A DNA stretch of 23,328 nt from a virus: positions 1 to 23,328 of the IMG/VR virus record IMGVR_UViG_3300030108_001424; one strand, written 5' to 3'. Below the pieces are notes generated by a model, which did no database searches, had not been told where the DNA came from, and saw only the letters and a list, made by a program, of their open reading frames with translations. Made by a program: the position numbers and the translations under genes. The first letter of the stretch is position 1; each line of letters begins with the position of its first letter. Positions 3 through 23,328 of this stretch are shown here, piece after piece.

Positions 3-1082
3 TTATCCAAAACGACCAAGGCACAGCCACAAGTTGCCCTTGATGTCGGGTCAGTAGAAGAAGTATCGGGGTTTGCTCAGATAGAAAGGGACGAGTCCTT
101 TGCCGTGACTCAGGACTTTGTCGTGCAATCGTACGACAAAGCACAAACCGAAGCGGGTCGCATGGGTATACGCTTCGTAGACGATACAACTATTAAGATC
201 ACCGAAAACTCCATGGTCATCATAGACGAGTTTGTCTTTGACCCTGATCCATCTAAAGCAAAGCTAGCGGTTAATTTTCTAAAAGGTACAGCACGTTTTA
301 CTACAGGTCTTACTGGCAAAGTGGCTAAAGAAAACATGGTGCTGCGAACCAACTCTGCTACCGTGGGTATCCGGGGCACAGACTTCAGCGTTACTGTAAA
401 TCCAGATACTTCAGAGTCTTTGTTTATATTGCTGCCAGATCAAGACGGAGCGCCTTCAGGTGAAATATCAATAACAACTGATATGGGCACGGTTGTTCTA
501 AACCAAGCCTTTCAAGCGACCACTACCACTACATTAGAAAGCGCGCCGAGCGAACCCGTGATATTAGACTTATCGTTAGACTTCATCGATAACATGCTTA
601 TCGTAACGCCACCTAAACGTTCTAGATCTCTTGACGAAGAACAAGGGACCACGGACACCGTCGACCCAATACTGGACTTCAACGAGCTAGATATAGACTA
701 TCTAGCAGAAGAAAACTTAGGCGAGGAGGGACTAGAGTTTACCGAGCTAGACTACGATGCACTAAACGTAAACTTCTTAGAAGATCTATTAGATATCATC
801 AGCGAGCTAGATAAAATAGACGATGAGGATCGATTAGCACAAGAAGCAACCACAACGAGTATAAAAGGCACGGCGGTAGGACAAGATACAAAAACACAAA
901 TAACTACAATAGTTACCGGAGAAAAGATAAAATTAAGCAGAGCTGTAGGATCAACTGCTTCAATTAACATAGATAGTAGCAACAGCTACACCGTTGTATT
1001 GGAACAAGACGGTGTGATGAACGAAGTTAAAGTCAACGGCGGTAGCGATTCAACCATCGTCATTAGACAGGGGAATGGTTAA
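3..1082 (+). CDS. FecR-domain virion or surface protein (5' partial)
   Basis: The frame is open to the window edge, so the gene starts upstream; a GTG at 105 is in frame but lies inside the domain. Residues encoded from about 40 to 370 match the FecR-domain layout: a glycine-rich first strand (VGSVEEVSG), an R-M-G-I-R-F segment, D-x-T-x-I-K-I-T-E-N-S, then a G-T-A-R-F-T-T-G strand and a closing V-G-I-R-G-T-D-F. In FecR proteins this is a beta-rich periplasmic domain; isolated FecR-like domains also occur in phage structural modules. The middle (about nt 640-840) is very acidic, with repeated Leu-Asp-x-x-x-Leu-Asp segments. The C-terminus is Ser/Thr/Asn-rich beta sequence ending in a V-L-E-Q-D-G...N and I-R-Q-G-N pattern reminiscent of curlin repeats. 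No iron-transport neighbour is present. The context is virion genes, so a structural or adsorption role is inferred. The function is unproven. Confidence 0.7.
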   Translation, partial: LSKTTKAQPQVALDVGSVEEVSGFAQIERDESFAVTQDFVVQSYDKAQTEAGRMGIRFVDDTTIKITENSMVIIDEFVFDPDPSKAKLAVNFLKGTARFTTGLTGKVAKENMVLRTNSATVGIRGTDFSVTVNPDTSESLFILLPDQDGAPSGEISITTDMGTVVLNQAFQATTTTTLESAPSEPVILDLSLDFIDNMLIVTPPKRSRSLDEEQGTTDTVDPILDFNELDIDYLAEENLGEEGLEFTELDYDALNVNFLEDLLDIISELDKIDDEDRLAQEATTTSIKGTAVGQDTKTQITTIVTGEKIKLSRAVGSTASINIDSSNSYTVVLEQDGVMNEVKVNGGSDSTIVIRQGNG

Positions 1083-3970: not shown

Positions 3971-4291
3971 ATGAGTCAGTATAATAAGTTTTATTACAAA
4001 CCTTTGCCTGATTTTTTACAAATAGGCGAAAGCGATATTGAAGGCTCTGGCGTATTCGCTAAAGAATACATAGAAGAAGACTACGATTTAGGCATGACGC
4101 ACATAAAAGTGCCTATCTTGAATGGCTACATAAGAACTCCTCTCGGTGGTTTTGTAAATCACTCTGACGATCCTAACTGTGAATTAGAAGAAAGATTAGA
4201 TTGGGATGACTATAGAATATATAATCTAGTAACGTTAAGGGATATATTAGAGGGCGAAGAACTAACATTAAATTATCACATTGACGAATAG
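3971..4291 (+). CDS. Compact SET-domain protein (lysine methyltransferase-like)
   Basis: A 106-aa protein consisting essentially only of a SET core. The motifs are in order: the Gly-Ser-Gly-Val-Phe-Ala SAM-binding turn at residues 25-30, Gly-Gly-Phe-Val-Asn-His-Ser at 59-65 followed by Asp-Pro-Asn-Cys at 67-70 (the NHS...PNC pseudoknot motif), and Glu-Glu-Leu-Thr-Leu-Asn-Tyr at 96-102, where the Tyr is the usual catalytic residue. SET proteins transfer a methyl group from S-adenosylmethionine to lysine side chains. Cellular SET enzymes carry pre- and post-SET parts that are absent here, so substrate contacts must be minimal or supplied by a partner. It sits between two pairs of lysine-rich proteins, obvious candidate substrates. 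It starts 21 bp after the previous gene and overlaps the next reading frame by 11 bp. The domain call is firm; activity and target are inference. Confidence 0.85.
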   Translation: MSQYNKFYYKPLPDFLQIGESDIEGSGVFAKEYIEEDYDLGMTHIKVPILNGYIRTPLGGFVNHSDDPNCELEERLDWDDYRIYNLVTLRDILEGEELTLNYHIDE

Positions 4292-8254: not shown

Positions 8255-9874
8255 ATGAGTTGGCGCAATAGAAACATGTTTACTAAAATGCCGCAGGGTA
8301 TTACCTCTGGGCTAGCTCCTATACCGAGATACAAGATGGGCGGCATGGTTCAATATTATGATGAAGGCGGCAAAACATATCCGAACGAAGGATTAAAAGC
8401 ATTAGCTAAAGTGGCTCCTGAAGTGGTCGAACGCATGGGCTATGAAGAAGGTGGCAAAACATATCCAAACGAAGGTTTGAAAGCGTTGGCTAAAGTTGCT
8501 CCAGAAGTAGTAGAAAGAATGGGTTACGAAAAAGGGGGAGAAATTTTTCCAGCAGATGAGGCTTTTAATTTTGTTGGCGGTACAGGGCCCATGGGCGTGC
8601 CTATGCCTAGCGGTATGCCAACACAAGTTTTTGAAGAGGGCGATGACGAAATTAACATGGCGTTAAACAATATGTTGCAAACAACAAGGCCTACTGGAGA
8701 CGCTCCAATAGTGCTTGCGCCAGAAGAAGGAGACGTAATTCCTGAAAAAGAAGAGGGTCAAAGTAAAGCAAAAGAGGCTTTGTTAAAAGTTATAGATAAA
8801 AGAAGACAATCTTTACAGTCACAGATTATGTCTCTTGTAGACGATATAGATTTAGACGAAAACGCTAATTCTTCTGACAAATTTATTCAAGATGTCTTGC
8901 CTCAAATAGTTGACTTAGCAAAAAGATTTGAACAACAGTCTAAAGAAATGGCTACTAAAATGAGTGTTTCTTTAGATGAAGAAGAAGCTACTTTGCTGAC
9001 AAATGAGTTTGAAGATCAATTAGAAAATAAGTTCCCAGCAACAGCTTTTATTTTAGACGAAGTTCAAGACACAAATGTTGCTGAAATACCTAGAATGAAA
9101 GAGGGCGGTATCTTTCAAAGAATTTTAGACTTTGCATCAGCAGGAAATCCAGCAGGAATAGATTTAAACGATTTAATAAAAATATTAGGGTTAGGCTCTA
9201 AAACAGGAGCTGCGGCAGCCTCCCTTTTTTCTGGGGAAGCTGAAGCTAGCCCAGAAACCCCTTCTACTAATTCTAAAAAAGTTCAGACGGCTGGTTTATT
9301 AAATAATATAAATGATTTATCTCAAGAGACTCCAAATTTTGTTGATCCTTTGTTTAGAACAAATGTTTTAGATAAAGCAGCGCCGTATTACGAAGAATTA
9401 AAAGATAGAGCAGAAGTAATTAGAAACGCTGCCTTAGCTTCGGGGAAAAGCAAACAAGGTGGTTTAGCAGGATTGTTTGATGTTAAAGGACAAGCAGATA
9501 TAGCCGCAGAAAAAACAGCAAGCGCTGGAGACATAGCTATGATTCAAGCAACGGGAAGAGGAAGCATAGCTGGATCAGCCGCAGAAAGAGATTACTTACG
9601 AGGTTCTCCAATAGCAAGACAAACTGCTTTTGGTCAGCTCTTGTCTAAAGAAGGCGTAGAAAAAGCTTACGAACAGTTTCTTGAAAACAACTTAGAAATA
9701 CCTGCTGCCTTTGATCCTAACGGTATTTTTAATAGTTCTAAGATGATAAACGGTGTGCCGTTTACTTTTTATGAACACTACAGGCAACAAATGGCTTTAC
9801 CAAGAGATAAAAGACCCGGCTCTTTATCTGAGATAATTGGCGAGTGGAATAAAATAACAGGAGACACAGGGTAG
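8255..9874 (+). CDS. Putative internal/structural protein with a duplicated 28-aa unit
   Basis: A 539-aa protein that I do not recognise as a named family. It starts 2 bp after the previous stop. Near the N-terminus a 28-residue unit beginning Y-[DE]-E-G-G-K-T-Y-P and ending V-V-E-R-M-G is present twice in tandem (residues 35-62 and 63-90), followed by a third partial Y-E-K-G-G-E. Residues about 155-275 are charged and helical (coiled-coil-like). Short E-G-G or K-G-G motifs recur and match those in the 387-aa protein upstream. The C-terminal third has a helical Ala-rich region (A-G-D-I-A-M-I-Q-A-T-G-R-G-S-I-A-G-S-A-A-E-R). There is no enzyme motif. A core or scaffold role is inferred from position before the giant internal protein. 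Confidence 0.6.
   Translation: MSWRNRNMFTKMPQGITSGLAPIPRYKMGGMVQYYDEGGKTYPNEGLKALAKVAPEVVERMGYEEGGKTYPNEGLKALAKVAPEVVERMGYEKGGEIFPADEAFNFVGGTGPMGVPMPSGMPTQVFEEGDDEINMALNNMLQTTRPTGDAPIVLAPEEGDVIPEKEEGQSKAKEALLKVIDKRRQSLQSQIMSLVDDIDLDENANSSDKFIQDVLPQIVDLAKRFEQQSKEMATKMSVSLDEEEATLLTNEFEDQLENKFPATAFILDEVQDTNVAEIPRMKEGGIFQRILDFASAGNPAGIDLNDLIKILGLGSKTGAAAASLFSGEAEASPETPSTNSKKVQTAGLLNNINDLSQETPNFVDPLFRTNVLDKAAPYYEELKDRAEVIRNAALASGKSKQGGLAGLFDVKGQADIAAEKTASAGDIAMIQATGRGSIAGSAAERDYLRGSPIARQTAFGQLLSKEGVEKAYEQFLENNLEIPAAFDPNGIFNSSKMINGVPFTFYEHYRQQMALPRDKRPGSLSEIIGEWNKITGDTG
8357..8524 (+). repeat. Two tandem 84-bp units encoding a 28-aa repeat
   Basis: Unit 1 is 8357-8440 and unit 2 is 8441-8524. The proteins differ at one residue (Asp to Glu at position 2), while by my codon-by-codon count the DNA differs at 14 of 84 positions, 13 of them silent. 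A third unit begins at 8525 but diverges after six residues. Confidence 0.9.
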
Positions 9875-14975: not shown

Positions 14976-15675
14976 TATCCATAACCTGCTCTGCCCAATA
15001 TCTATCTACACGCTCCATCCACATGTCTGCGTGACGTCTAAACTCTCTGCCTTGTATAACAAACTCTTGATACACAAGATCAACGGAACACATTAAGACA
15101 ACACCTTTTTGTATGTCTGTGCCATACAGCTCGTTGTGCGCAAGAGCATACGCAGCAAGCTGACAGAAATAATCTTCTATCCATTCACGTCGTTTAGGTT
15201 TATTGGTTTGTTTAAAATCCATGATGCAGGGTTCGTCCTCAAACACGCCGATAACGTCAGCTTTACCTGCGTATCGATTTGGATTGTACAAAGACACCTC
15301 ACAGCCATAGACCTGATTTATCCTAGAAAAAGAGTTGTCCATGATGGTACATGCCATCTTATATGCTCTTTTCTCTTCGGCTGTTTCAGGTCTATAGTCC
15401 CACAAATTACCATGCACTATCTGTTTCTCTAGTATGTGATGCACGGTGGTACCGCGAGCAGCCGCCTCCATGCGTATCCTATTGGCTTCTTCCTCACCAA
15501 CACGTTCTATCCACTTCTTTATCCCGTCGTTATCTTCTTTCGTCCCGGATAATATCGTGGTGACAGAAGGCAGCTTCTGGCCGTTACAGTCATAAAACCT
15601 TCTTCCGTCTTTGCCGTCCTCACTAGAGAAGTCATTGTATTCGTACGGTGACTCGTACAATATTACATGCTTCAT
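14938..15675 (-). CDS. PD-(D/E)XK exonuclease (RecB/Cas4/MGME1-like)
   Basis: A 245-aa protein. Motifs are in order: S-V-T-T-I-L at 37-42, A-R-G-T-T-V-H at 73-79 (the conserved His of this class), Glu126, G-K-A-D at 137-140, I-M-D-F-K at 151-155 (the D-x-K of PD-(D/E)XK) and Q-L-A-A-Y at 172-176. This is the RecB-type nuclease core, which cuts single-stranded or double-stranded DNA ends with Mg2+. The arrangement resembles phage exonucleases and mitochondrial MGME1. There is no four-cysteine Fe-S cluster, so it is not a canonical Cas4. It is last in the leftward replication operon: its ATG overlaps the stop of the RHH gene (ATGA). Likely roles are recombination, genome processing or host DNA degradation. 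Its 3' end runs 38 bp into the opposing giant gene. Confidence 0.88.
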   Translation of the reverse strand: MKHVILYESPYEYNDFSSEDGKDGRRFYDCNGQKLPSVTTILSGTKEDNDGIKKWIERVGEEEANRIRMEAAARGTTVHHILEKQIVHGNLWDYRPETAEEKRAYKMACTIMDNSFSRINQVYGCEVSLYNPNRYAGKADVIGVFEDEPCIMDFKQTNKPKRREWIEDYFCQLAAYALAHNELYGTDIQKGVVLMCSVDLVYQEFVIQGREFRRHADMWMERVDRYWAEQVMDTIQEAQGPGKSQ

Positions 15676-15842
15676 GTTTTTGGTAACTCTTCTACTCTGC
15701 CTTTTTTCACGTCATCGTGTAGACGCTTAATCGCAAAAGCAAAAACGTTACTGGTAGATCTTTCAGTTCGCTTACCTATATCTTCAGCGATCTTAACAAT
15801 CTCCTTACGTATGGCTACGCTACGCCATTTTTCTGTATCCAT
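15672..15842 (-). CDS. Small ribbon-helix-helix-like protein (56 aa)
   Basis: I read this by hand on the minus strand. It encodes M-D-T-E-K-W-R-S-V-A-I-R-K-E-I-V-K-I-A-E, then D-I-G-K-R-T-E-R-S-T-S-N-V-F-A-F-A-I-K-R-L. The pattern is that of a ribbon-helix-helix DNA-binding protein: a short basic beta strand (W-R-S-V-A-I-R), helix A (E-I-V-K-I-A-E), a turn with R-S-T-S, then helix B (N-V-F-A-F-A-I-K-R-L). AGGAG lies at good spacing before its ATG. It starts 14 bp after the polymerase stop and its TGA overlaps the exonuclease ATG. RHH proteins of this size are usually dimeric repressors or antitoxins; no toxin partner is adjacent, so an operon regulator is the more likely role. The fold is inferred from pattern only. 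Confidence 0.65.
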   Translation of the reverse strand: MDTEKWRSVAIRKEIVKIAEDIGKRTERSTSNVFAFAIKRLHDDVKKGRVEELPKT

Positions 15843-15856
15843 TTTACTGAACTCCT

Positions 15857-17728
15857 TTAATCATTATCGTTTTGTGACTCCATAGAATCACCCCAGTTTT
15901 TGCCTACCTCTGCATCTACCTTATTAGGTACACACAAAGACACAGCTTGTTCCATGGTTTCAGTTATGCCTGCTACATCTTTATCCGAAGCTACAGAAAA
16001 CACAAGCTCGTCGTGCACCTGTAGTAACGGCATATAACCAGACTGATAACAGTCGACCATGGCCTTCTTTGTCATATCCGCCGCCGAACCCTGTATAAGT
16101 TTGTTCAGCGCCTTATAGACAAATGCTCTTTTTATTTCGCCGTTGTATTCGTGTATGGCTTCTTTGTATTTCATGGGTCGACCCGTGCCATAGCGCATCG
16201 GCTCCCACATATCAAAGTGACAACGACGTCCTAATAGTGTTTTTATATATCCTTTTGAGCTAGCACTTCTCATAACAGAATCTGCTAACTGTCTAACAAA
16301 AGGAGCGTAGGTATTAAACTTACTAAGTATGTCAGCAGCTTCGTCGGTTGTTACCCCCAACTGATCTGCTAGTTTACCTTTGCCCATACCGTACATAATT
16401 CCTAGACCGATAGTCTTTGCGGTCTTTCTATCTATGCCCACTAAATTAGCTACCTCTTGGTGAAAGTCTGCATCGCCTTCTAGATACGCATCAGCAATAG
16501 CATCTGCGCCATCGTACTTAGACAAACTAGCATAGTGAGTAAGTATTCTTGGTTCTTGTTGACTAAAGTCTGCTGAACACCAGCGCTCGCCTTCTTCTGG
16601 TAAGAACAAAGAACGAATCAACGGACCTATGTTTTTGTTTCGTGCCGGGACTTGTTGCAAGTTTGGATTGCTCATAGACAACCGACCAGTGACTGTACCA
16701 CCGCTCTCGCCTTTCAGCTGTCTTATCTCTGCGTGTATCCTGCCGTTGTGCTCGTGCTTCAGGATAGAGTCAATAAACGTGCTATGCGATTTGTTTATCT
16801 CTCTAGCTTCTTTAATCATTTTAGCTACAGGATGTGTGTGATTGTCTAAAAATGCCTTGGTAAAGCTAGGCTGCCCTGTTGGAGTACGTGTATACGTTAG
16901 CTTCAGGGCGTCAAAAACGGTCGCTAACGAGTTTGCTGCCCAAAGTTGTAGTTCTCTTACACCAGACTGTTTCTGTATCTCCAAGAGCAGTTCTTTTTCT
17001 TGTTTGATTAGCTGCCTCTTAATTGTCTCTGCTCTCTCAGTATCAACACGGACACCTTTCTTTTTCATTTCGTACAACACAGGCAAGACTTCCATTTCTA
17101 AATCAAAGATGTTCCACAGGTTCTGCTCTTCAATCAAAGTCTTGAAATGATTCCAAAGCTTCAACGTCAAAGCAGCGTCCTGTGTTGCATACGTACCCAC
17201 GTATGCCGAAGGCAGACGCCACATTTCTGCTTTCGGATCTAAGCCCCACTCCTCAGCAGCGGCGTTTAGTTCTGCCTCCGTTTTACCCTCGTTTACGTAT
17301 TCTCTACCCAAGGCATTTAAGGTATACCAATACTGGTTCTCATCTATCAGAGGAGCGACCACCATCGTATCGATAATTCTGCCGTTTACTTTTATGCCTT
17401 CTGATCCTAGCCAACCCATGTCGTACGATGCGTTGTGAAATATTTTGTCTGAGTTACTAGCGCATACTTTCTTAGCAAAACTAATTACTTTGTTTTTAGG
17501 AAAGTTAAACCCACTCTCATGCGCAAACGGAAAGTAGCCTTCAAAGCCATCGCAAGCAAACGATATGCCCACTATCTCTCCATCACCTCTTATGTATCCG
17601 GGACCTTTCTCTTTTAAATTAGGGTCTCTGGTTTCTGTATCTATCGCTACCTCTTTTGCGTTGACCAACAACTCTGTTGGAAACACATCAGGCGGAGTCC
17701 ATTCCGTAGGTGGTTTAAATGTTGTCAT
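15857..17728 (-). CDS. polA: DNA polymerase I family (family A) with 3'-5' exonuclease
   Basis: A 623-aa protein lacking the 5'-3' nuclease domain, like T7 gp5. The proofreading domain is intact: Exo I Asp30-Thr-Glu32, Exo II Asn99...Asp103 (H-N-A-S-Y-D) and Exo III Tyr180...Asp184 (Y-A-T-Q-D). Polymerase motif A is at about 384-394 (C-S-A-D-F-S-Q-Q-E-P-R) with catalytic Asp387. The O helix runs Arg434, Lys438, Leu442, Tyr446 (R-K-T-A-K-T-I-G-L-G-I-M-Y-G-M). Motif C is Q-V-H-D-E-L with His572 and Asp573. The position equivalent to E. coli Phe762 is Leu442, a variant known from marine viral polymerases. The ATG overlaps the helicase stop (ATGA). This is the replicative polymerase of the phage; no DnaJ-like or other insertion is seen. 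Confidence 0.95.
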   Translation of the reverse strand: MTTFKPPTEWTPPDVFPTELLVNAKEVAIDTETRDPNLKEKGPGYIRGDGEIVGISFACDGFEGYFPFAHESGFNFPKNKVISFAKKVCASNSDKIFHNASYDMGWLGSEGIKVNGRIIDTMVVAPLIDENQYWYTLNALGREYVNEGKTEAELNAAAEEWGLDPKAEMWRLPSAYVGTYATQDAALTLKLWNHFKTLIEEQNLWNIFDLEMEVLPVLYEMKKKGVRVDTERAETIKRQLIKQEKELLLEIQKQSGVRELQLWAANSLATVFDALKLTYTRTPTGQPSFTKAFLDNHTHPVAKMIKEAREINKSHSTFIDSILKHEHNGRIHAEIRQLKGESGGTVTGRLSMSNPNLQQVPARNKNIGPLIRSLFLPEEGERWCSADFSQQEPRILTHYASLSKYDGADAIADAYLEGDADFHQEVANLVGIDRKTAKTIGLGIMYGMGKGKLADQLGVTTDEAADILSKFNTYAPFVRQLADSVMRSASSKGYIKTLLGRRCHFDMWEPMRYGTGRPMKYKEAIHEYNGEIKRAFVYKALNKLIQGSAADMTKKAMVDCYQSGYMPLLQVHDELVFSVASDKDVAGITETMEQAVSLCVPNKVDAEVGKNWGDSMESQNDND

Positions 17729-19290
17729 ATTAAGTACCTGTAGTATTCGTTTCTAGCCTGCACGATATAGAGATTCTCTAGTGCTCTGGTAACAGCCACA
17801 TAAAACTGTCTGTGCAAACCATCTGGATTGAGCAAAAAGTTTTGCTTTATCGCCGGGGATATATCTAACAAGACTGCAACGTTGTCAGCCTCACCACCTT
17901 TTGCTTGGTGTATTGTAGATATCGCTATCCTCGGTTCGCCATGTAAATCCTCGTTATTGTTTTTTGCTTTTTCTATAAATGCTCTTCTTTCTACGTCTAT
18001 GGTTTTATTGAAAGTATCCTGCCAATCGCCGCCCAAGGTTTCTTCTTTCAAACCGTAGTTATCTAATATTTGTTGTTTAGTTAATTCTTGCCCCTTGTTT
18101 TCATCGTTTAATACTTTAGTTATAAATCCTCTCTTCACGTGCGCCTTGCCTAGATAAGCATATAGATCACCGAGTTGAGCCATAGTAAGCACTCCCTCAC
18201 TGTTTAGTTTCTCCCAAGCGTCCATGGCTGCAATCATCTTGTACGGAATGTATCTGTAGTGATTGTGCGAGAAAGGATAGCCGTTGTTTATCAAATGTTT
18301 TCTAGTGCTGTAGCCTTTGTTGTAATCGGACAACATGTAGTCACAAGAAGATAAAATTAACCAGTTGCCTTTTTCTAACGGCAACAGGTTGACAGAAGAT
18401 ACTTCTGTGACTGCGCCTTCTTGCTCTCTTGGTTTGTACTCTTTGTCCGCTCTCTTTCTTATCTTGTTTGATATGCGCTCTGCTACGTTGTGTACGGTCT
18501 TTGGTATCCTGAAAGACTGGTTCAGTACAATGTTCTTGCCTTCGTAGTCTACAAACCTATCTGGTCTGGCTCCGCTCCACTCGTAGATAGCCTGATCGTC
18601 ATCGCCTGCTATGTAGGTCTTATCAACGTTAGCAGACAGTACATCGACCAAACGCCAGTTTAGTTCTGCCAAGTCTTGAGCTTCATCAACGATAAGAACA
18701 TCTAACGGTGGACAAAGGCCTCTCTCAACAAACTCTTTTATCATGTCAGCAAAAGAATAAATAACAGGAGAGCTTTGCATGCGATACTCTTCCCATGCGT
18801 CGTAAATATTTTTTAAGATAACGGGTACCACATTCTTGCGTAAAGCTACGTCGCAGTTAAGTCTTTCTTCTTCGATATCTCTACAGTTTGCTTTTGAGTT
18901 TTCTATCAGTTGGAAATATGGATCCTCCAACATCTTATCCAGCGATTGTTTCTTATCCATCTTATAGTTCTTAGTTAAGTTGAAGCTGTACTCTTCTAAA
19001 AAGTCTCGGATATCTTCGCCTGACATCACTCTGCCTATGGCTAACGCACGCTTGCAGAAGGCGTGACTTGTGCAAAAGTAAGGCATTTCATCAAAACCAA
19101 GCCCCAAGGACGCGTACGCCCTGTTTTTGGCCTCTGTAGCAGCCTTCACTGAGTAAGATATAAAAGCTATTCTGTCTGGCTGCACGCCGTCATCTAGATG
19201 TTGCTCTACTAAATCAAGCAGCTTAGTTGTCTTACCCGTTCCCGGAGGACCAAAGAACTTCTGTATGTTTCTAATCTTCAATCTTCCCAC
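17725..19290 (-). CDS. SF1 DNA helicase, UvrD/Rep-like
   Basis: A 521-aa ATP-dependent 3'-5'-type helicase. Motif I (Walker A) is G-P-P-G-T-G-K-T at 14-21, motif Ia is around S-Y-S-V-K-A-A (45-51), motif II is V-D-E-A-Q-D at 201-206, motif III is A-G-D-D-D-Q-A-I-Y-E-W at 228-238, motif IV is Q-S-F-R at 258-261, motif V is S-T-I-H-Q-A-K-G-G-E-A-D at 458-469, and motif VI is Y-V-A-V-T-R-A at 497-503. It is shorter than bacterial UvrD (about 700 aa), with reduced 1B and 2B subdomains. It overlaps the primase gene by 13 bp and is directly followed by the polymerase, so a role at the replication fork or in recombination is likely. Family assignment is firm; direction of unwinding is inferred from family. 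Confidence 0.93.
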   Translation of the reverse strand: MGRLKIRNIQKFFGPPGTGKTTKLLDLVEQHLDDGVQPDRIAFISYSVKAATEAKNRAYASLGLGFDEMPYFCTSHAFCKRALAIGRVMSGEDIRDFLEEYSFNLTKNYKMDKKQSLDKMLEDPYFQLIENSKANCRDIEEERLNCDVALRKNVVPVILKNIYDAWEEYRMQSSPVIYSFADMIKEFVERGLCPPLDVLIVDEAQDLAELNWRLVDVLSANVDKTYIAGDDDQAIYEWSGARPDRFVDYEGKNIVLNQSFRIPKTVHNVAERISNKIRKRADKEYKPREQEGAVTEVSSVNLLPLEKGNWLILSSCDYMLSDYNKGYSTRKHLINNGYPFSHNHYRYIPYKMIAAMDAWEKLNSEGVLTMAQLGDLYAYLGKAHVKRGFITKVLNDENKGQELTKQQILDNYGLKEETLGGDWQDTFNKTIDVERRAFIEKAKNNNEDLHGEPRIAISTIHQAKGGEADNVAVLLDISPAIKQNFLLNPDGLHRQFYVAVTRALENLYIVQARNEYYRYLI

Positions 19291-20882
19291 TCCTTCTTAG
19301 CCGTAGGGTTTTTAAAATCATCTACAGTAATCTTACTGTTATCTACTTCGACAACATCTAACACCCAAATGTTTTTGTTGCCTATGTTCTTGTCTATCCA
19401 TTTGACTGAGTTGTTTGCTCCCATGTTCTTTAGTTCGTCAAAGATCTCTGCCTCTTTTATGTTCTTCATGTTTTTGTATTCTCTGATGTAGTTGACTATG
19501 TCTCTGCCTCTAAACCACCATTGATTAGTTTCTTCCTCTTCCATACGAAACGCTCCGCCAGATACGATAGCCATACGAGAAGTAGACTCTGTGGTAATAC
19601 AAAACTCCATGATAGATTCTTCAAGCAGTCCACTCTTGGTCATGTCAGCAGGGACGTCTATCTCCTGCACGTCTTGTAGCAATGCGTTTAGTTTTGCTAC
19701 CCAATCTATTTTCTTTACGTCTGGTGGACAGATGTTCAACACTTCCATACATCTTTGTTGATACATGCTGAAGTTGTGAAGTTGTTTTGTTTCGAGCACG
19801 ATAGTCTGTCCGTCTATATCTAAGTGCCACAAGGGTGGGTCAGTTAGATATTTCCGTAGCCCACCAAAGACAGGATCGCGTTCTGCGGCATCTATGCCAA
19901 ACCTTTTGGTTACACAGATACCGCTCTGACAAAAGTCTTGTAGCGGAGCTTTGCTGCACGGATACCGATAGTCAGACTTCTCCACGCTTTGTATTAAGTT
20001 GTTAACTTCGCTATGCGGTAGTGGTTTGGCGCAGACCTGCTTGTTTACTTCTTGCAGCTTATCTTTCCACTCTTCGCCTTCTGGGTGTACTTTTCTAAAA
20101 AACACACCGTAAGCAAACATAGCATTGTTGCGCATACCTTCAGGTATACCGTTCAACTTCATGTGAACCAGACAAGGTGGAGCCTCGCTCCAGATGTCTT
20201 TGTCTGCGCCGTTAGATGCGATAAGTTTTCTCCTAGATTTCTTTACCGGGAGAAGCTCATCTAATTGTTCTTCTGTGATCGCTTTACGCTTTGCATACTT
20301 TATAAAGTCCTCTGGGGATAAAGAATCTGCTTTTTTGTTCAGACCGTATCTGGTCGTATCGTCGCCTGCAAAGTAGGGCATGTTCAACCAGTTACCTGTT
20401 TGCTTTTCTTTGGGTACTTGGTCAGACCATTGATATTGTTTCGGAAATATCTCATCTCCAGTTCTGCCCATGGCTGCTGTAATGTCCTCTAGTTTATTTT
20501 TTATTTTGATGGCTGGGACAGGCTCACTTGTAAAAAGGAATAAGTGAAGCCCGCCCGACTTAGTAGAACAAGCGACCAAGGGCAGAGACATCTCATCGAT
20601 GTTTTTCAAAATCTTTTTTATGTCGATAGGGTATTCATCTATATCTATGCAGCCCCACCTACATGTTTCATCATCGGTTATCGGAATCACTCCGATAGAA
20701 ACCTCTCCGTCTAAATGTTTTTTCCAAAGCTCAAGAGTAAGCGGTTCATGCAGGGTCTTTGCTATCCCGTCTTTCTTTACTCCGCGTGCTGTGTTCTTCT
20801 GCCCTGTGATTTCATATATTCCGTGCGCTCTGTCCAGCCCGGAAAAAACATCCATAAATTCTTTTTCTATTTCTTTTGTCAT
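19278..20882 (-). CDS. AEP-type DNA primase (primase-polymerase-like)
   Basis: A 534-aa protein. The catalytic core of the archaeo-eukaryotic primase superfamily is visible: C-I-D-I-D with Asp80 and Asp82 (the D-x-D metal ligands) and S-T-K-S-G-G-L-H-L-F with His113 (nucleotide-binding motif). A following G-N-W-L-N-M-P-Y-F at about 163-171 is typical of the TOTE/prim-pol-like branch. I cannot place the third carboxylate securely. Residues about 245-330 resemble a PriCT-like helical domain, with G-M-R-N-N-A-M-F-A-Y and a Cys cluster (Y-P-C, eight residues, C, four residues, C) that may bind zinc. The C-terminal part is unassigned. It should make primers for the adjacent family-A polymerase. 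Its ATG lies 17 bp after a GC-rich hairpin and lacks a clear Shine-Dalgarno. Confidence 0.82.
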   Translation of the reverse strand: MTKEIEKEFMDVFSGLDRAHGIYEITGQKNTARGVKKDGIAKTLHEPLTLELWKKHLDGEVSIGVIPITDDETCRWGCIDIDEYPIDIKKILKNIDEMSLPLVACSTKSGGLHLFLFTSEPVPAIKIKNKLEDITAAMGRTGDEIFPKQYQWSDQVPKEKQTGNWLNMPYFAGDDTTRYGLNKKADSLSPEDFIKYAKRKAITEEQLDELLPVKKSRRKLIASNGADKDIWSEAPPCLVHMKLNGIPEGMRNNAMFAYGVFFRKVHPEGEEWKDKLQEVNKQVCAKPLPHSEVNNLIQSVEKSDYRYPCSKAPLQDFCQSGICVTKRFGIDAAERDPVFGGLRKYLTDPPLWHLDIDGQTIVLETKQLHNFSMYQQRCMEVLNICPPDVKKIDWVAKLNALLQDVQEIDVPADMTKSGLLEESIMEFCITTESTSRMAIVSGGAFRMEEEETNQWWFRGRDIVNYIREYKNMKNIKEAEIFDELKNMGANNSVKWIDKNIGNKNIWVLDVVEVDNSKITVDDFKNPTAKKEWED

Positions 20883-20898
20883 ACATATTGTTAGAGGT

Positions 20899-20922
20899 GG
20901 GCGGCGGGGTTACTCGCCGCCC
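20899..20922 (-). promoter_or_regulatory. GC-rich hairpin in the primase leader
   Basis: Two 10-nt arms (plus strand GGGCGGCGGG at 20899-20908 and CTCGCCGCCC at 20913-20922) enclose the 4-nt loop GTTA. In the leftward transcript the stem is eight G-C pairs, one A-C mismatch and a closing G-C. No U-tract follows in either direction, so it is not a standard terminator. It lies in the 46-bp gap between the SSB-like gene and the primase, in otherwise AT-rich DNA. It could modulate translation or mark an RNA-processing or 3'-end stabilisation point. Confidence 0.75.
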
Positions 20923-20928
20923 GATAGA

Positions 20929-21708
20929 TCACTCCCAAGTTTTAGCTTCGGAATTATCCTCTAATGCAGCAGTATTGGAACTCCCCGGGAGTTGATCCAT
21001 ACCACCGTCTGCACAAAACTCAGAAAACTCTTTTGCTTCTGTAAACAAATCAGTTTCCTGTTCATCTAAGACCCGTTCCTGTGAAATGGAAAATGAATAC
21101 CATGACCCACGATCGTTAGATTCTATTTGTGTTTTTAAAAGATACCAGTGCGAGTATGAAGGAGGGGTAAACATACCCTGTGCTCCTTGCATCTTCGTAC
21201 TCTGTATCAGTGTGTTGAAGTATCTAGAGTGCTTCAACTGTGACCCCGTCATGTTGATGACGCATTTCTGCGGCTCTTCATCAATCAAAGCGTAGCCATA
21301 GTGGTTAGCCGTTGGTGTAAGCTGAGTTTCACCTGTTGGTGTGATAAGCCTACCTTGGCTATCACGATTGCATCTGTTAAACAGATCGCTATCAGCAGAG
21401 TGAACCTTAACTAGCCCACCGCCCTTCTCACGAAGTTTCCACTCGACCAACGTTTTGTTATACCAAACTGGTAAGAAACTCAAACCCGTCTCACCTGATA
21501 TTATTGTGTTGGAACCAGTGAAAAAGAGATCTCCCTCTTCCGCATCAGGATTATAGTCAGCGTTGTCTTTTTTCCTTTGCGGAGACATTGCTTGTATGAT
21601 CGTGATACGCGGAGTCCTAAGATCGTCTGATGATACTTCGCCGAAGCCTTTCTCTTCGACACCTTCAAATAAAGATACTATGTCACTTTTTGGTTTTTTA
21701 GTTGCCAT
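20929..21708 (-). CDS. Probable single-stranded DNA-binding protein
   Basis: A 259-aa protein with no enzyme motif. Central beta-rich sequence with many aromatics (G-L-S-F-L-P-V-W-Y, H-Y-G-Y-A-L, S-H-W-Y-L-L-K, G-S-W-Y-S-F) would suit an OB-fold. The C-terminus is acidic and ends on an aromatic and a Glu (A-L-E-D-N-S-E-A-K-T-W-E), the kind of tail that SSBs and T7 gp2.5 use to contact replication partners. It has no signal peptide. It sits immediately upstream of the primase in the replication operon; its own start follows the 189-aa gene by 14 bp with a GAGG ribosome site. I do not recognise it by sequence identity, so the SSB call rests on composition and position. Confidence 0.55.
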   Translation of the reverse strand: MATKKPKSDIVSLFEGVEEKGFGEVSSDDLRTPRITIIQAMSPQRKKDNADYNPDAEEGDLFFTGSNTIISGETGLSFLPVWYNKTLVEWKLREKGGGLVKVHSADSDLFNRCNRDSQGRLITPTGETQLTPTANHYGYALIDEEPQKCVINMTGSQLKHSRYFNTLIQSTKMQGAQGMFTPPSYSHWYLLKTQIESNDRGSWYSFSISQERVLDEQETDLFTEAKEFSEFCADGGMDQLPGSSNTAALEDNSEAKTWE

Positions 21709-21722
21709 ATCTTCGTTCCTCG

Positions 21723-22292
21723 TTATTTAGTTATTTTCGTTCGCTTGCCCTCGTAGACAGAGAAAAGATCTCTGACTGCTTGGTCAAACACCTGATTGCC
21801 CGACTCAACTTGTTCGCGAACGAACGCCTTGAGCGAGCTAGGATGGACATTCTCTTTCTGTTCAGGCAATAGCCCTTCCTTTCTGAGTACATCTATCACT
21901 TCTTTAGCGCGATCGTCCTCACCTCTGCCGAACTGCACGCTGACGACATTCTTAATTAAGTCGCCATGGCCGTTCTCGCGGAGCCAACTGTGAGCCGCAT
22001 CAGCTTTGTCTTTGCTGATACGAGCGCTGTAAAACGGTTCAGCTGCTATCCTCGATCCGTCATTCAAACGAATGTCTTGGATACCTAGCTCTAATAATCT
22101 TTGGGGTATAACTTCTTCTGATAGTTCACGCTCTTGTTCTTTCAAGCGTTGTAGTCGGTCCTCTGTGTTTCCGATTGTGCCCTGTACGCGCAGAAGTTTG
22201 TCGCATAGTTTTGATAGGTCGGCTAAATGGTTTTCGTTAAGGTCTTCTACTTTCTTCTTTGTTTGTTCTTCGAATAATATTTCTATTGCCAT
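21723..22292 (-). CDS. Conserved phage protein with N-terminal coiled coil, function unknown
   Basis: A 189-aa protein. Residues about 8-62 are strongly heptad-like and charged (coiled coil). The rest has a compact alpha/beta block (I-R-L-N-D-G-S-R-I-A, A-R-I-S-K-D-K-A-D-A-A-H-S-W-L, G-H-G-D-L-I-K-N, V-Q-F-G-R-G-E-D-D, V-H-P-S-S-L-K-A-F-V-R-E-Q) that I recognise from early-region phage proteins without a known activity. As the first gene of the leftward unit it is transcribed from the divergent control region and has an AAGGAG site before its ATG. Position suggests an early replication accessory or a host-takeover protein; a DNA-replication adaptor is equally possible. Confidence 0.6.
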   Translation of the reverse strand: MAIEILFEEQTKKKVEDLNENHLADLSKLCDKLLRVQGTIGNTEDRLQRLKEQERELSEEVIPQRLLELGIQDIRLNDGSRIAAEPFYSARISKDKADAAHSWLRENGHGDLIKNVVSVQFGRGEDDRAKEVIDVLRKEGLLPEQKENVHPSSLKAFVREQVESGNQVFDQAVRDLFSVYEGKRTKITK

Positions 22293-22321
22293 TATTTATT
22301 TTCTCCTTCGTTAGTGCGAGA

Positions 22322-22368
22322 TCTAGCAGGATGTGTGAACATGAATAAACCCGACTGTCCTTGCTAGA
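22322..22368. repeat. Inverted repeat TCTAGCA...TGCTAGA in the control region
   Basis: Arms TCTAGCA (22322-22328) and TGCTAGA (22362-22368) extend to TCTAGCAGGA and TCCTTGCTAGA with one bulged base. The 33-bp space between the short arms is too long for a single dimer footprint but fits a looped or paired operator. It lies in the leader of the leftward operon, 30 bp upstream of its first ATG. Confidence 0.6.
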
Positions 22369-22396
22369 CCCCGACTTTTTATATAAAACCAGTCGG
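22351..22396. promoter_or_regulatory. Three CCGACT hexamers at exact 20-bp spacing (candidate operators)
   Basis: CCGACT occurs at 22351-22356 and 22371-22376 on the plus strand and inverted as AGTCGG at 22391-22396. Starts are 20 bp apart, about two DNA turns, so all three face the same side of the helix. The last copy ends one base before the -35 element at 22398. Copies 2 and 3 flank the AT palindrome TTTTATATAAAA (22377-22388). This is a typical layout for a repressor or activator binding cooperatively between divergent units. Confidence 0.6.
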
Positions 22397-22397
22397 A

Positions 22398-22426
22398 TTG
22401 ACATGAGTATATATTACTTTTAAAAT
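22398..22426 (+). promoter_or_regulatory. Near-consensus sigma70-type promoter, rightward
   Basis: TTGACA (22398-22403, perfect -35), a 17-bp spacer, then TAAAAT (22421-22426, five of six against TATAAT). It drives the SNF2-type helicase whose ATG is 50 bp downstream. It suggests early transcription by host RNA polymerase. Confidence 0.8.
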
Positions 22427-22435
22427 AAAAGGCAA
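22408..22435 (-). promoter_or_regulatory. Weak candidate leftward promoter
   Basis: Read on the minus strand, TTGCCT (22435-22430), 16 bp, TATATA (22413-22408). Each box matches four of six consensus bases. It overlaps the rightward promoter and would serve the replication operon beginning at 22292. AT-richness makes chance matches likely. Confidence 0.25.
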
Positions 22436-22475
22436 GATATTTTTGAATATTAACGAAAAACGAAGGATAAATCTT

Positions 22476-23328
22476 ATGAACTACGAATTTAAAACGCCGC
22501 CCTACGCACACCAAAAACAAACTTTAGAACAAAGCGCCGACAAACCGCTGCACGCTCTCTTCTTAGAGATGGGTCTTGGTAAATCAAAGATACTCATCGA
22601 TAACATGGGTATGCTTTTTATGAAAGGAGAGATCTCTGGAGCATTGATTGTTGCCCCCAAAGGTGTCTTGCAGAACTGGTCTGTCAACGAGATTGAACGC
22701 CACTTGCCCGATAGCATAGAAAGAAATGTTTTAGTCTGGCAACCGAACCACACGCAACGTTGGACCAAGGACTTTAAAGACATGGTCACAGAAGATAGCA
22801 CAGGTAAATTAAATATTCTACTTATGAACGTCGAGGCGTTTGCCACCGACAAGGGTTGCAAGTTTGCCGAAGAATTTTTGGCTACGCACGAGTGCATGCT
22901 TACCGTAGATGAGTCGACCACGATAAAGAATCCAAAGGCAAAGCGTACGAAAAACCTAATAAAACTGGCGCCTCTAGCCAACTACCGCAGAATACTCACA
23001 GGTTTTCCAATAACCAAAGCGCCGCTAGATTTGTATTCGCAATGCTTTTTCCTGAGCCCAAACTTACTTGGCTACAACAGCTATTACGCCTTCCGGGCAC
23101 GCTACGCCATCATGCAAAGAAAGCAGATGGGCGGTCACGCATTTGACCACATCGTAGGCTTTCAAAGGCTGGACGAATTACAAGAAGCTCTCAAACCTTT
23201 TTCTACAAGAAAGACTAAAGAGCAATGTCTTGATCTACCAAAGAAGGTCTACACCAAACGTTACGTTGAACTAACGCCAGAACAAAAGAAGGCATACGAA
23301 CAGATGAAGAAAGAAGCCATCATGGTAT
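22476..23328 (+). CDS. SNF2-type SF2 DNA helicase/translocase (3' partial)
   Basis: Open from ATG 22476 to the window end (284 codons, no stop). The N-terminal RecA-like lobe is complete: a Q-like Tyr-x-His-Gln (10-13), Walker A E-M-G-L-G-K-S at 31-37, motif Ia I-V-A-P-K-G-V-L-x-N-W at 58-68, motif II V-D-E-S-T-T-I-K-N at 144-152 (DESxxIKN, as in phage SNF2-like proteins rather than DEAH), and motif III L-T-G-F-P-I-T-K-A-P-L-D-L-Y at 174-187, with Phe where the family usually has Thr (LTGTP). These enzymes translocate on double-stranded DNA or unwind D-loops; in phages they are linked to replication initiation and recombination. The start is supported by CGAAGGA upstream and by the consensus promoter. 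The second lobe lies outside the window. Confidence 0.9.
   Translation, partial: MNYEFKTPPYAHQKQTLEQSADKPLHALFLEMGLGKSKILIDNMGMLFMKGEISGALIVAPKGVLQNWSVNEIERHLPDSIERNVLVWQPNHTQRWTKDFKDMVTEDSTGKLNILLMNVEAFATDKGCKFAEEFLATHECMLTVDESTTIKNPKAKRTKNLIKLAPLANYRRILTGFPITKAPLDLYSQCFFLSPNLLGYNSYYAFRARYAIMQRKQMGGHAFDHIVGFQRLDELQEALKPFSTRKTKEQCLDLPKKVYTKRYVELTPEQKKAYEQMKKEAIMV

Follow-up and report, generated by a model that had tools for sequence, protein, structure and literature searches.

The short region that separates a leftward replication operon from a rightward SNF2-type DNA helicase gene, in the marine phage record of 23,328 bases that was analysed here as a whole (‘the window’, itself a fragment), is best read as a compact divergent control element with two interlocked promoters. 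The short repeats lying beside these promoters are a lineage-specific add-on, most likely one that forms hairpins in a leader RNA; taking both parts together, we hold this reading with slightly better than even confidence.

Predicted interlocked promoters between two transcription units

The replication operon runs leftwards on the minus strand and comprises genes for gp33-like (DUF7307) and gp34-like proteins, an AEP primase, a UvrD-like helicase, DNA polymerase A and a PD-(D/E)XK nuclease. Its first gene (21723..22292, minus strand) encodes a DUF7307 / Pam3 gp33-like protein of 189 amino acids (E 9e-29; phrog_2378), and the divergently oriented SNF2-type helicase gene (22476..23327, plus strand; PF00176, E 7.5e-25; phrog_62) runs off the end of the window. 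Judged by protein similarity, the nearest named phages are the HTVC023P-type pelagiphages and phage DSL-LC04, with SNF2 identities of 45-54%; at the nucleotide level, no similarity between the window and cultured phages was found. HTVC027P, which is of the HTVC023P type, has been described as lytic (PMC12753301). Far from the region of interest, the window also encodes a FecR-domain protein (3-1082, plus strand; PF04773, E 2e-10), and FecR genes have been described together with curli-secretion genes in HTVC023P-type pelagiphages (PMC9599517). A SET-domain protein of 106 amino acids (3971-4291, plus strand; PF00856, E 3.5e-10) is encoded within the structural gene region.

Between the two units, the plus strand carries a predicted sigma-70-type promoter (22398..22426) made up of a perfect TTGACA (22398-22403), a 17-bp spacer and TAAAAT (22421-22426), with a start predicted near 22433 that would serve the SNF2-type gene at 22476. 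Facing away from it on the minus strand (22406..22435), TTGCCT (22435-22430) and TATACT (22411-22406) are separated by 18 bp and form a putative promoter of moderate quality (9 of 12 consensus positions), which would serve the replication operon from a start near 22399. Both are consensus matches. The first bases of the two -35 boxes lie 37 bp apart and the predicted starts ~34 bp apart; the -10 boxes are separate, and each -35 box sits near the predicted start site of the opposite promoter, giving what is, at the level of prediction, a pair of divergent promoters with overlapping core elements. A scan of positions 15000-23328 with the sigma-70 consensus returned only three promoter-like sites, against 14 expected from shuffles, and this pair accounts for two of the three. 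No intrinsic terminator was found in the control region.

Searches for relatives yielded 90 loci, and most of those holding both genes keep the divergent order. The two loci nearest to the window, L002 and L003, make up a ‘trio’ with it, in which 77 of the 78 columns from 22398 to 22475 do not vary whereas the left flank diverges; the rightward promoter itself is identical in both relatives, bar one base of the spacer. For the wider set of relatives, promoters were scored by means of a simple weight matrix of E. coli consensus frequencies. In 13 of 21 sequence clusters, a distance of 33-40 bp separated the -35 boxes of the best-scoring plus/minus pair, as against 6.5% of shuffles and 6.1% of random 150-mers taken from the same phages, a comparison to be read with the knowledge that the range was chosen after the data had been seen and that the clusters are homologous and not independent. 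The other eight clusters, which include the cultured HTVC023P and HTVC027P, do not have this geometry as their best pair; the interlocked pair is present in 023Pt_psg01. Near-symmetric TTGACA...TGTCAA promoter pairs also occur upstream of SNF2 in distant relatives among L056-L091 (L063, L064 and L070). The first-pass annotation had proposed that a single region controls both the replication operon and the SNF2-type gene, and this part of it is supported, in that gene order and the interlocked promoter pair are both widely conserved.

Some further features of these relatives may be recorded here. L064 has a long inverted repeat upstream of SNF2, TTGACAATATA...TATATTGTCAA, the symmetry of which is imperfect but extended, and in several of the distant relatives L056-L091 both predicted leaders have GAAAG close to where they start. 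Assorted small leftward genes lie between the gp33-like and SNF2 genes in L004, L005, L012-L020, L033, L038 and others, the spot adjoining the divergent promoters being a hot spot for gene turnover.

A classical bidirectional promoter, in which a symmetric -10 element is shared by the two directions, would also give divergent transcription from such a region. In five relatives (L004, L012, L015, L016 and L090), the -10 boxes overlap and the predicted starts are 21 bp apart, which falls within the 7-25 bp of the published definition (PMC10268837). For the window, however, the geometry disfavours an arrangement of this kind, its -10 boxes and predicted starts being set too far apart, and we regard it as very improbable there.

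A hexamer pattern confined to close relatives

The first-pass annotation had singled out copies of CCGACT at a regular 20-bp spacing, with an inverted repeat interleaved, and had read that spacing as a sign of proteins binding cooperatively along one face of the helix. The repeats themselves are real, and every position given for them proved exact. Copies 1 (22351-22356) and 2 (22371-22376) are on the plus strand and copy 3 (22391-22396; AGTCGG as read on the plus strand) is on the minus strand, such that three copies fall within 46 bp, the last of them 1 bp from the rightward -35 box, with its perfect TTGACA at 22398, and ~3 nt past the predicted leftward start. The inverted repeat, TCTAGCA (22322-22328) with TGCTAGA (22362-22368), spans 22322..22368.

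Chance expectation was gauged with 20000 dinucleotide shuffles of the 183-bp intergenic region. A non-AT hexamer of any kind occurred three times within 60 bp in 1372 of these (6.9%), and three exactly equidistant copies of any hexamer in 48 (0.24%); over the entire window, 0.23 equidistant triples are expected and 2 were seen. A window-wide search for further clustering of CCGACT, as had been suggested, revealed no enrichment of the hexamer (8 found, 5.5 expected). The pattern is therefore locally unusual, lies within chance once the entire window is scanned, and is weak evidence by itself.

Within the trio, copies 1 and 3 are kept in both relatives, whilst copy 2 is kept in L003 and reads CCGGCT in L002. 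The second spacing is 19 in both (20/19, as against 20/20 in the window). In the block 22351-22376, 24 of 26 columns do not vary, compared with just 23 of 38 in its left flank. The TCTAGCA inverted repeat is perfect and longer in L002 and carries one mismatch in L003. Beyond the trio, the hexamers are absent from relatives whose SNF2 identity is 79% or less, many of which still have a similar rightward leader. The exact CCGACT triple had no match in viral collections, and a relaxed triple combined with TTGAC was found only in L002 and L003 among viral contigs, and in none of the genome contigs. The hexamers are a recent, lineage-specific addition, and probably serve either as part of a leader RNA or as a binding site.

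Conservation does not support same-face cooperative binding: the helical spacing of the repeats is not constant across relatives, having shifted from 20 to 19 in both of the closest, and the second hexamer has been lost in one of them. The annotation had itself offered a lack of conservation of hexamer and spacing in close relatives as grounds for giving up its proposal, and what was found goes half of the way; the spacing changed and L002 lost its second hexamer, but the remaining hexamers were kept.

It might be that the hexamers are chance occurrences or decaying relics, and that the promoters alone matter. The number of equidistant triples expected per window, and the disappearance of the hexamers at ~80% identity or less, are in keeping with this, but in the three nearest sequences the block is better conserved than the left flank, and the leader that contains it folds better than most shuffles (see below). 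We think it unlikely.

Predicted leader hairpins and a candidate operator

The predicted leftward 5' leader (22293..22399, minus strand) contains every one of the CCGACT and TCTAGCA repeats, all of which are also upstream of the rightward -35 box. The computed fold of this leader has an energy of -24.9 kcal/mol, compared with -18.6 for shuffles (z -2.0), and its 22318-22398 part reaches z -3.5. Copies 2 and 3 of CCGACT pair with one another as the predicted 5' hairpin (-9.2 kcal/mol, z -2.8), and the TCTAGCA repeat gives a second, larger one (GGUCUAGCA-A-GGA / UCC-UGCUAGAUC). The corresponding leaders of L002 and L003 (lengths 97 and 103) fold at -28.7 and -25.9, with predicted 5' hairpins of similar energy to that of the window (-8.3 and -8.7) despite the altered spacing; in L002, the change that abolishes hexamer 2 permits a hairpin in another register, the energy of which is ordinary for its composition (z -0.9).

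Both leaders of the L021-type clade begin with small hairpins: CAACU-N3-AGUUG, with a variable loop, in the left leader, and AACAC-N5 to 8-GUGUU in the right, the arms of the latter differing but still pairing in L047 and L051. In the window, the predicted rightward leader occupies 22433..22475 on the plus strand (GCAAGATATTTTTGAATATTAACGAAAAACGAAGGATAAATCTT from 22432), and its motif, GCAAGA-ATATT...AACGAA...AAGGA, is recognisable in some relatives with SNF2 identity down to ~71%. A search of 22000-22600 against Rfam gave no match up to E 1. Just 5' of the start codon, both leaders of the window carry AACGAAGGA (22304-22312, minus strand; 22459-22467, plus strand), which occurs elsewhere in the window only at 8384; ATAACGAA recurs in the leaders of relatives on both sides.

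On account of the leader folds, the alternative-register hairpin of L002 and the leader hairpins of the L021-type clade, we lean slightly towards a leader-RNA role for the repeats over a DNA operator, a judgement made from three close sequences. A protein operator is a close rival. Here, the CCGACT copies (and perhaps TCTAGCA) would be half-sites recognised by a small DNA-binding protein, for which the RHH-like product of L003 described below is one possibility, or by a host regulator; tandem binding upstream of the rightward -35 box would block leftward transcription from its start onwards, and either repress or help the rightward promoter. The packing of three copies against the -35 box suits such an arrangement, as does the near-invariance of the block beside a diverging left flank. 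Copy 1, moreover, is invariant in the trio and belongs to neither hairpin, which favours a protein site or an alternative pairing. Saying this, the shift in spacing in both relatives, the loss of copy 2 in L002 and the absence of the hexamer triple elsewhere in the viral and genome collections all count against an operator.

The RHH-like protein invoked by the first-pass annotation has no counterpart in the window record as far as RHH matches go, and the RHH_1 profile (PF01402) found no match in the window or in 13 related records. In L003, two small additional genes are found between the control region and the gp33-like gene, at 191-385 (+) and 375-623 (+) of that locus, both of which are missing at the matching place in the window and in L002, these records being fragments. 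The first, which directly adjoins the region on its leftward, downstream side, encodes 64 amino acids that look RHH-like by eye, with weak matches to VapB (E 0.026, below the cut-off) and phrog_25348 (E 6e-4). Used as a query against the records of the relatives, this protein found only L003 itself; it had no solved-structure match, and its single-sequence AlphaFold model is poor (pLDDT 57). The product of the second gene has 82 amino acids and no assigned function. Weighing the repeats and this candidate together, we regard an operator as a serious contender, though one to which we give distinctly less than even weight.

Proposed polymerase competition and known systems

Interlocked promoters with leader hairpins remain our preferred reading, and on it we propose a model for how the region might work. 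Two promoters of the host sigma-70 type would face apart from within one another, the -35 box of each lying near the start of the other, and for this reason we infer that RNA polymerase should occupy one orientation at a time, so that leftward transcription of the replication genes and rightward transcription of the helicase gene would compete. In the leftward leader RNA, CCGACT copies 2 and 3 would form a 5'-terminal stem-loop, followed by the second hairpin, and these structures may affect the stability of the mRNA or the translation of the replication operon. The ‘phage switch’ envisaged by the earlier annotation is possible on such a scheme, through exclusion of polymerase at overlapping promoters, and would have no need of the hexamers. 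Going further, a large marine phage group might time its transcription without any regulator, by means of near-symmetric interlocked promoters with matching 5' stem-loop leaders; the balance between replication operon and helicase would then be struck by polymerase competition alone, and fast-evolving hairpins would tune each side. This broader idea we put forward as a long shot. If both promoters are active, the region would show polymerase competition occurring naturally, and conserved, in the divergent control region of a marine phage group. It would also supply a promoter model for phages in which transcription has hardly been studied. The hexamers, by comparison, would matter little outside their lineage.

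In lambda-type OR switches, several short repeated sites lie between or beside divergent promoters that are themselves separate. The window resembles these in having divergent promoters plus short repeated sites, but its promoters are interlocked, the spacing of its sites is not conserved, and no CI/Cro-like or lysogeny gene was seen in the window. The HTVC023P-type pelagiphages (PMC9599517) and the Pam3-like module have homologues of its gp33-like, gp34-like, primase, helicase and DNA polymerase genes, likewise divergent from an SNF2-type helicase gene, although identity is low (see above for SNF2) and, in HTVC023P and HTVC027P, the interlocked pair is not the best-scoring one. Bacterial bidirectional promoters also drive transcription both ways out of a single short sequence, where polymerases would be expected to compete sterically, but they share a symmetric -10 and have starts mostly 18 bp apart (PMC10268837, PMC12825309), unlike the separate boxes and wider predicted spacing of the window. 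In the Pc/Pr pair of the Bacillus plasmid pLS20, divergent promoters overlap between opposite units, and the regulator RcoLS20, two operators and DNA looping have been demonstrated (PMC4207663). The window has overlapping promoters of this sort, with candidate sites alone standing where regulator sites overlap or flank those of pLS20, and differs in what its two units encode, namely phage replication functions and a helicase. On its predicted architecture, we would class the region with overlapping divergent promoters, as a variant of them.
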